A DNA stretch of 39,376 nt. Source: Patescibacteria group bacterium (GTDB lineage: Bacteria > Patescibacteriota > Minisyncoccia > Phycocordibacterales > PALSA-1337). Of the stretch, positions 12,910-29,677 are shown piece by piece. The position numbers were made by a program, and so were the translations under genes. Each line of letters opens with the position of its first letter. Within the stretch, counting starts at the first letter, position 1. The notes under the pieces are model-generated. The model worked only from the letters and a program-made list of their open reading frames with translations, did no database searches and was not told where the DNA came from. The stretch spans positions 1-39,376 of the forward strand of contig JAGWJT010000003.1 of assembly GCA_028865615.1 (NCBI GenBank), written 5' to 3'.

Positions 12910-13917
12910 ATGAATGGGGAAGGAGAACCAACCATATTATCCGGCCTTGTCGCCAGGGACCGCTTGAAAGGCGAGCTCATCGAGCGTATCTCGGGCCTCA
13001 AGGCAACAGGGATGACGCCTGCCCTGGCTATCATCCAAGCCGGCGATCGGGCCGATACGACTTCATATGTGGATAGCAAGAAAAGATTCGCGGCAGGCAT
13101 CGGCGCGGATGTCCGGCATGTTCATATGGATGCGGATGCCCGACAAGAGGATGTCATAGGTCATATCAAAACCTTGAATGCCGACAGGTCTGTCCATGGG
13201 ATCATAGTCCAATTGCCGTTGCCCGAAGGGTTGGATCGCGACGCGGCCATGGCCGCCATCGATCCCGCCAAAGACGCCGACGGGTTGGCTCCGACCAATG
13301 TAGCTATATGGTCGGCCGGCGGCTCCCATGTCGTTTGGCCGGCTACGGCTAGAGGGGTGGGGGAGCTTCTGGATTTCTACGACATAGTCTTGAAAGGCAA
13401 GAATGTCTGTGTCATCGGCCGATCGGCATTGGTGGGGGCGCCGGTAGCCGCATTGTGCCGCGCCAAAGGGGCTATAGTGACAGTGTGCCATTCCAAGACC
13501 GGAGACCTGAAGAAAGAAACCCTGGCCGCAGACGTCATCATATCCGCCGTCGGTAAGCCGGGGCTTGTGACGGTTGACCATGTGAAGCCGGGACAGGTGA
13601 TCGTCGACATAGGTATCAGTGAGGTCGGTGCCGACCATCAGTCGAAGAACATTTCGCAGGAATTTTCCAGCGAGAAAATTCCGAGACATAGGGCGAGCCC
13701 TGCAGGGCCCGACCCGTGTTCTGAGACTGATGGTCGGCACCGACCCGGCCGCTCGCAACCGAAGCGCAACCTCATAGGAGATGTCGATTTCAAAGCGGTC
13801 AAGGCTGTCTTGGGGCCCAATGGAGCCATTTCGCCGGTGCCCGGCGGTGTCGGTCCCATGACCGTCCTAGCCCTGTTCGAAAACTTGGCGGATTTATGTG
13901 ATAGAATGTCATCGTAA
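12910..13917 (+). CDS. folD: bifunctional methylenetetrahydrofolate dehydrogenase/methenyltetrahydrofolate cyclohydrolase, with a ~45 aa insertion
   Basis: TTSYVDSKKRFAAGIGADV, VQLPLPEGLD, PVPGGVGPMTVLALFENL; insertion between VDIGISEV and NLIGDVDF. Confidence 0.93.
   Translation: MNGEGEPTILSGLVARDRLKGELIERISGLKATGMTPALAIIQAGDRADTTSYVDSKKRFAAGIGADVRHVHMDADARQEDVIGHIKTLNADRSVHGIIVQLPLPEGLDRDAAMAAIDPAKDADGLAPTNVAIWSAGGSHVVWPATARGVGELLDFYDIVLKGKNVCVIGRSALVGAPVAALCRAKGAIVTVCHSKTGDLKKETLAADVIISAVGKPGLVTVDHVKPGQVIVDIGISEVGADHQSKNISQEFSSEKIPRHRASPAGPDPCSETDGRHRPGRSQPKRNLIGDVDFKAVKAVLGPNGAISPVPGGVGPMTVLALFENLADLCDRMSS
13623..13745. repeat. 123 bp palindromic element inserted in frame in folD
   Basis: 21 bp perfect terminal inverted repeat GGTCGGTGCCGACCATCAGTC (13623-13643) / GACTGATGGTCGGCACCGACC (13725-13745), plus internal GGAATTTTC/GAAAATTCC hairpin and GCCCTGCAGGGC palindrome. 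Confidence 0.9.
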
Positions 13918-22807: not shown

Positions 22808-22936
22808 GTAAGGGAAAGGGACATGCTCCCTCGGAAGCGTTCGGAGCTCTGCAGAGCTCCTCACTCGGTTCTCGGCGATTTTCCTGCTGGAAAATCGCCT
22901 GCGAGTGTTCCTCGAGAGCATGTTCCTTTCCCTTGC
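22808..22936. repeat. palindromic element between glyA and argS (same family as the folD insertion)
   Basis: Outer arms AAGGGAAAGGGACATGCTC (22810-22828)/GAGCATGTTCCTTTCCCTT (22916-22934, one G-T); inner palindrome GGAGCTCTGCAGAGCTCC (22843-22860); hairpin GGCGATTTTCC-TGCT-GGAAAATCGCC (22874-22899). Confidence 0.9.
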
Positions 22937-28908: not shown

Positions 28909-28970
28909 TGTATATGAAGTAGCCCGTATCCATTCCTGAATCATGAATCTTGAATCTTGAATCTGCTACC

Positions 28971-29555
28971 ATGTATGCCGTCCACACAACTCCCGGATTT
29001 GTAATAGGTTCCAAACCTTACGGCGAGGCCGGCAAGCTGCTCTCCATATTTACCCGTGACTTTGGTCTGGTGACCGCCACGGCCCAAGGCATAAGGCTGG
29101 AAAGATCAAAGCTGCGCTATCATGCCCAGGATTATAGTCTCGGAGAATTTTCGCTGGTGCGCGGCCGTGAATTCTGGCGGCTGACCAATGCCCGCCCGTA
29201 TGCCGATTTCCTATTGCCGACAGGAGTCGGTCCAGAGCCGGTCATACGCGCGGCTCTGCTTTTGAGGCGGTTGTTGCATGGAGAAGAATCAAACCCGCTC
29301 CTATTTGGACACGTATACGAATGCACTAGGTTTTTGGCGGGCAACCCGGATCTAGACGAGCGGCAAATGCAGGCCGCGGAGTCCCTGGTGGTGTTTAGGA
29401 TACTCGATGCCCTTGGTTATATAGGGGATAATCACGATCTGAACGGAGACCTGTTGTCATCTGTTTTGTCCGTCGGCTTGTTGGAGACCGCAAGCGGGCA
29501 GAGGATAGCCATAAACAAGCACATAAATACGGCCCTGCGCGAGAGTCATTTATAG
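28971..29555 (+). CDS. recO: DNA repair protein RecO
   Basis: VIGSKPYGEAGKLLSIFTRDFGLVTATAQGIRLERSKLRYHAQDYS. Confidence 0.88.
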   Translation: MYAVHTTPGFVIGSKPYGEAGKLLSIFTRDFGLVTATAQGIRLERSKLRYHAQDYSLGEFSLVRGREFWRLTNARPYADFLLPTGVGPEPVIRAALLLRRLLHGEESNPLLFGHVYECTRFLAGNPDLDERQMQAAESLVVFRILDALGYIGDNHDLNGDLLSSVLSVGLLETASGQRIAINKHINTALRESHL

Positions 29556-29564
29556 AGACCAATG

Positions 29565-29677
29565 AGAGACCCAAGGAACTTGCTCCTCAGGGCACGCGAT
29601 TTCTCTGCTGAGACATCGCTCAGTTCGAGCGCCAGTCGCGCTCGAAAGTCACTTCGGAGCAAGTTCCTTGGGTCTCT
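29565..29677. repeat. palindromic element between recO and the next gene
   Basis: 22 bp perfect inverted repeat AGAGACCCAAGGAACTTGCTCC (29565-29586)/GGAGCAAGTTCCTTGGGTCTCT (29656-29677); inner GCGATTTCTC-TGCT-GAGACATCGC and TTCGAGCG/CGCTCGAA hairpins. Confidence 0.9.

Follow-up and report, generated by a model that had tools for sequence, protein, structure and literature searches.

The folD gene in the window, i.e. the whole analysed stretch of 39,376 nucleotides from a Patescibacteria bacterium (contig JAGWJT010000003.1) that is, judging from its relatives, probably Taylorbacteria-like, contains a palindromic element of 123 bp (13623–13745) across which the reading frame remains open. We consider it probable that this element is a copy of a non-autonomous, palindromic and mobile repeat family of these Patescibacteria, which resembles miniature inverted-repeat transposable elements (MITEs), behaves like the Rickettsia palindromic elements (RPEs) and has its arms renewed by template switching. 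At the level of the sequences this reading is carried by dispersed copies with similar cores, by recG sites that are empty in sister species, by in-frame copies with open frames and by arms which are complementary and at the same time specific for each locus.

The palindromic element in folD

The features of the gene and of the element are listed below.

12910–13917, + strand: folD, 335 amino acids, with both FolD domains (Pfam PF00763 and PF02882) and the insert in frame
13623–13745, + strand: palindromic element with type-1 core (inverted repeats, fold z −11.9, covariance model 123.3 bits)
13623–13643, + strand: left outer arm, 21 bp, perfectly paired with 13725–13745
13644–13652, + strand: one side of the internal loop (13644–13645, 2 nt) and left strand of the 7-bp inner stem (from the fold and pair counts over 20 copies)
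13659–13682, + strand: hairpin 1 of the GGAATTTTCC / GGAAAATTCC type, between conserved TTCGCA and GAGA
13691–13715, + strand: hairpin 2, loop TGCA
13725–13745, + strand: right outer arm, the reverse complement of the left arm

The first-pass annotation of this DNA had already described a 123-bp element with 21-bp perfect terminal inverted repeats in FolD, an open frame and a PVPGGVGPMTV end following normally, all of which is borne out. A repeat detection tool reports 29 nt at 93%, since a 2×2 mismatch followed by further pairing extends the perfect arms. The predicted single-strand fold is a Y-shaped three-way junction composed of the 21-bp outer stem, a 2×2 internal loop with 13723–13724 as its opposite side, the 7-bp stem, whose left strand pairs with 13716–13722, and the two hairpins. 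The fold of 13620–13750 was calculated to −80.8 kcal/mol compared to a mean of −39.6 for shuffled sequences, and none of 200 shuffles was as good. Among the covariance models of Rfam 15 no family matches the element; only an unrelated tRNA appeared at E values up to 1.

The AlphaFold2 model of FolD has a mean predicted local distance difference test (pLDDT) score of 87.8, with values below 50 only at residues 242–251 and 253–281. The insert (residues about 242–281) is thus modelled as a disordered loop between the strands 236–239 and 287–290; judged from the model of FolD alone, this loop is presumably solvent-exposed. Given the open frame, the peptide is presumably translated and retained. 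Related FolD proteins lack the segment, which speaks for an insertion rather than for a conserved part of the enzyme. The flanking residues are, however, not strictly adjacent in normal FolD as had been assumed, because a short variable linker separates GIS/GIN from LVGDVDF in the relatives, and the net insert therefore probably comprises 37–41 residues instead of the about 45 originally proposed.

Copies, arms and insertion sites

The element is a genome-wide repeat. A DNA similarity search of the source genome (G000; 711 kb, a draft of 55 contigs) revealed 8 other matching places, and DNA and covariance-model searches combined gave at least 26 distinct loci, three of them within the window. 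When 197 related genomes were searched with the covariance model, 39 of them gave matches, mostly members of the same genus; the model was built from G000 and two relatives, element counts depend on it, and some weak matches may be long inverted repeats of other kinds. The copies are about 95–165 bp long and belong to several core types, some in the opposite orientation. A pattern scan of genome contigs returned eight stretches, seven of which lie in Patescibacteria records, and the named public records with copies are metagenome-assembled genomes of Candidatus Taylorbacteria and Patescibacteria. The viral contigs searched contained neither the element nor a near FolD relative.

In 20 aligned copies from three genomes 97.6% of the cells are paired, whereas slid controls reach at most 46%. 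Both partners have changed in 24 of the 28 pairs of the long stem and in 11 of the 20 pairs of the hairpins, the latter comprising 5 of 10 in hairpin 1 (99% of cells paired) and 6 of 10 in hairpin 2 (98.5%). A comparison of arm with core identities divides the arm, as seen at 13623–13643, into a locus-specific outer part of 11 bp and an inner part of 10 bp which is usually subfamily-specific. Between G000 type-1 copies whose cores are 95% or more identical (98% on average), the inner 10 bp are 90% identical and the outer 11 bp 37%, which is no better than between distant copies. Nevertheless, the outer arms of 14 such copies form Watson-Crick pairs at 151 of 154 positions (98%), compared to 31 of 112 within the 8 bp outside, and pairing ends sharply at the element edge (4 of 14 at the next position outward). 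Arm lengths in other genomes range from 18 to 39 bp and are not fixed; the 5′ arms are purine-rich. Mismatches in 1877 arm pairs of 85 elements amount to 41 G-T and 34 A-C, with an arm detection that slightly favoured G-T. As both numbers are about equal, nothing indicates that an RNA helix on one strand was selected for, an evolution of the arms as RNA stems is unsupported, and copying at the DNA level fits best.

The recG gene offers empty and filled sites side by side. The insert is absent in G063, G074 and G075 of the genus g31, which read KDxxG(L/Q)ARAPHLL, while G069 reads KELVGLV, 33 additional residues and RVPHLL, corresponding to 99 bp inserted between two conserved residues (GLA / RAPHLL). 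The host codons on both sides of this insert (GTGGGACTCGTG and CGAGTCCCCCAC) match each other as outer arms, and G073 carries at the same site a shortened copy with 13-bp perfect arms of different sequence. We conclude from this comparison that host flank forms part of the arms and that the arms at one site can diverge between species, yet stay complementary; a purely native flank on one side as source of the arms is contradicted. A further recG (G065:C7:17130-17855) apparently contains a much larger in-frame expansion of about 370 bp at the position of the G069 element.

The preferred location of the copies is the 3′ side of genes. Of 85 elements, 61 were assigned to intergenic regions; 50 of the 61 have a stop codon no more than 30 bp away, and neighbouring genes are most often convergent. 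Elements at orthologous intergenic sites in several species differ in their arms and in some cases in core type. One orthologous convergent site holds an element in four species and an ordinary hairpin or nothing in others, a terminator-like hairpin being present in the element-free G005, G008, G015 and G018. At an intergenic site occupied by an element in G068, a differently structured long inverted repeat was observed on G069:C7 (in L285). The locus-specific ends, the covarying three-way junction of the core and the gene-end location had not been noticed in the first-pass annotation.

The further genes in which a copy was read in frame are uvrB, ligA (two species), mnmA (six), a comF-like gene (three) and recG, and Pfam domains were confirmed for FolD, UvrB, LigA, MnmA and RecG. 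DnaE- and DnaG-like genes, named from sequence reading, apparently carry the element too. A mechanical count places 24 of 85 copies in open reading frames (ORFs) including spurious ones, and only the named genes are relied upon here. Intergenic copies have open frames in 34% of cases compared to 15% in mononucleotide-shuffled sequence. Together with the number of copies, the insertions into FolD, UvrB, LigA, MnmA, the ComF-like protein and RecG within one family of bacteria lend support, by analogy, to the earlier inference of an RPE-like process at work in this lineage.

The other two copies in the window are situated as follows; gene names derive from sequence reading.

22810–22934, − strand: second copy, of a different core type, in the interval from the end of a glyA-like ORF to an argS-like ORF (covariance model 69.7 bits)
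29566–29676, − strand: third copy, another core type, downstream of a recO-like ORF at 28950–29555 (covariance model 52.7 bits)

The 165-nt stretch of the third copy folds with −80.2 kcal/mol. Long near-perfect inverted repeats with arms of 32–38 bp and an unrelated loop of 40–60 nt were additionally seen at G000:C22:12428-12531 (in L112), G028:C10:7045-7173 and G028:C24:10428-10555, possibly representing a second family with locus-specific arms. In L131 and L132 (G063 and G069) a block of about 250 bp that contains a tRNA-like gene together with an element hardly differs between the two species, the adjacent gene being about 79% identical, which suggests a possible recent transfer or conversion of the block.

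Origin of the arms and rival explanations

Inverted repeats are known to arise and to be homogenised by template switching, which also gives multi-base compensatory changes (PMC8794818, PMC8604942). We propose the following scenario: An enzyme supplied in trans would mobilise the copies, which would settle mainly on the 3′ side of genes and more rarely, in frame, in variable loops of proteins. In-frame copies would be translated as disordered loops and tolerated by the host protein. Intrastrand template switching in the manner of quasipalindrome correction would renew the arms, keep them complementary at the DNA level and recruit host flank sequence into them. Several points weigh against this scenario. 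No mobilising gene was identified; no element lies near the six loci of Y1 transposase genes checked, including that of G000, and the element-rich G010 (70% complete) has no Y1 transposase gene. No clean target-site duplication was detected by eye, the G000 type-1 flanks included, although a possible TATAAA repeat surrounds the uvrB copy (L114). An empty site at the DNA level was not found for the folD copy, for which the relatives are too distant (best about 59% protein identity). Template switching alone fails to explain the sharp 21-bp arm border in G000, and the fact that several species have elements at orthologous ends of genes could reflect a function there. The IS200-type Y1 transposase was rejected as mobiliser owing to its lack of proximity to elements and its absence from G010; the G000 gene itself (G000:C16:4976-5347, about 147 amino acids) is apparently intact.

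The sharp border would be accounted for if, on insertion, an enzyme transferred an inverted copy of a fixed length of the target flank (about 11 bp) to the other end, such that the arms are made at insertion and not later. The locus-specific part indeed ends at one position in the 14 G000 type-1 copies, and the left-arm codons of FolD fit the G usual there in several relatives (GISxxG). However, the insertion in recG is bordered by host codons on either side and there are no surplus residues that a one-sided copy could account for, a net gain of 112 bp would disrupt the reading frame of FolD and of the ComF-like gene, and arms elsewhere vary in length. We therefore regard insertion-coupled inverted copying as possible but unlikely, and still slightly more doubtful appears a Patescibacteria mobile DNA system which replaces the usual direct target-site duplication by a fixed-length inverted target copy at its ends, thereby providing each copy with a unique perfect stem and conserved enzymes with disordered loops. 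Alternatively, the elements might enter the centre of short pre-existing palindromes, for example bidirectional terminators, whose half-sites become the outer arms. The empty recG of G074 has GGACTCG-CC-CGAGCTCC at the site, the uvrB insert of G000 is flanked by GGCCTATA...AAAGGCC, and the terminator-like hairpins in the four element-free genomes named above point in the same direction. On the other hand, natural palindromes would vary in length while the G000 arms stop at one position, and little palindrome is found in the empty recG of G063 and G075 and at several empty intergenic sites, which leaves this explanation with a comparably low probability.

The accumulation of intergenic copies next to stop codons, their presence at orthologous convergent sites in several species and the purine-rich 5′ arms would also be compatible with RNA or DNA structures that are kept by selection as bidirectional terminators or protectors of mRNA 3′ ends, the copies in genes being side effects. 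Yet an ordinary hairpin or nothing occupies the orthologous site in other species, the arms show no clear preference of G-T over A-C, and such a role does not apply to copies within coding sequences; we judge a gene-end function kept by selection to be rather improbable. An assembly artefact, with the insert absent from the real chromosome, or a dead FolD may be suspected in a draft genome, but is hardly conceivable in view of the dozens of independent genomes in which related elements recur at differing loci and of a FolD whose sequence outside the loop fits both Pfam domains and yields a high-confidence model. A spliced-out intervening sequence was likewise discarded because every coding copy that was read keeps an open frame, a property for which splicing would give no need. 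Renewal of the arms of a mobile repeat by template switching thus remains our favoured explanation.

Relation to known repeat systems

The RPEs, of which ten families are described, and the Wolbachia palindromic elements are palindromic repeats of about 100–150 bp that occur between genes and in frame in unrelated conserved protein genes; RPEs reside in solvent-exposed loops, often at one gene site common to sister species and sometimes with a different element group there, and their mobiliser is unknown (PMC10969869, PMC2229807, PMC3767692). RPEs are listed with 12-bp terminal inverted repeats (PMC2229807). The family presented here shares with them the dispersed palindromic copies, the in-frame insertion in unrelated conserved genes and, according to the FolD model, the presumably exposed loop location, but it differs in its host of another phylum, in the covarying three-way junction of its core and in its locus-specific ends. 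The ends of RPEs are presumably shared between copies. The motif ATGAC of RPE-4/6/7 is not enriched, with 8 occurrences in 85 elements compared to a shuffled mean of 18.9. An agreement with RPEs in the way of working is thus supported as an analogy, and sequence membership is not claimed.

MITEs such as Correia/NEMIS, RUP, ERIC and YPAL are also short non-autonomous repeats with terminal inverted repeats, some of which form in-frame fusions, and YPAL targets span or adjoin dyad symmetry (PMC2229807). Despite the related build, each locus of the present family has outer arms of its own, and inspection by eye showed no clean duplication. In MITEs, the ends are conserved for transposase recognition and most of them give a target duplication. 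Repetitive extragenic palindromes (REPs), described as 20–40 bp long (PMC3733652), and their composites, the bacterial interspersed mosaic elements, resemble our family as hairpin-forming, largely extragenic repeats, and the Y1-type gene in G000 recalls the REP-associated tyrosine transposases. In contrast to that system, no elements accompany the Y1 genes examined and Y1 presence does not track element number. Quasipalindrome template switching shares the copying of one arm onto the other, the homogenised inverted repeats and the multi-base compensatory changes, but is described as a general mutation process and not tied to a mobile family with renewed ends.

A search of mostly open-access literature retrieved no publication that describes elements of this kind in Patescibacteria. 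Rickettsia and Wolbachia are the best-known cases of palindromic DNA invading proteins in frame on a large scale, and the occurrence of such invasion in the ultra-small Patescibacteria therefore suggests an independent origin in reduced genomes. Arms that are near-perfect yet locus-specific are hard to reconcile with ordinary transposition and constitute a testable case for arm renewal at the DNA level. For genome annotation, the inserts put long disordered loops into conserved genes and yield a covariation which resembles that of structured RNA.
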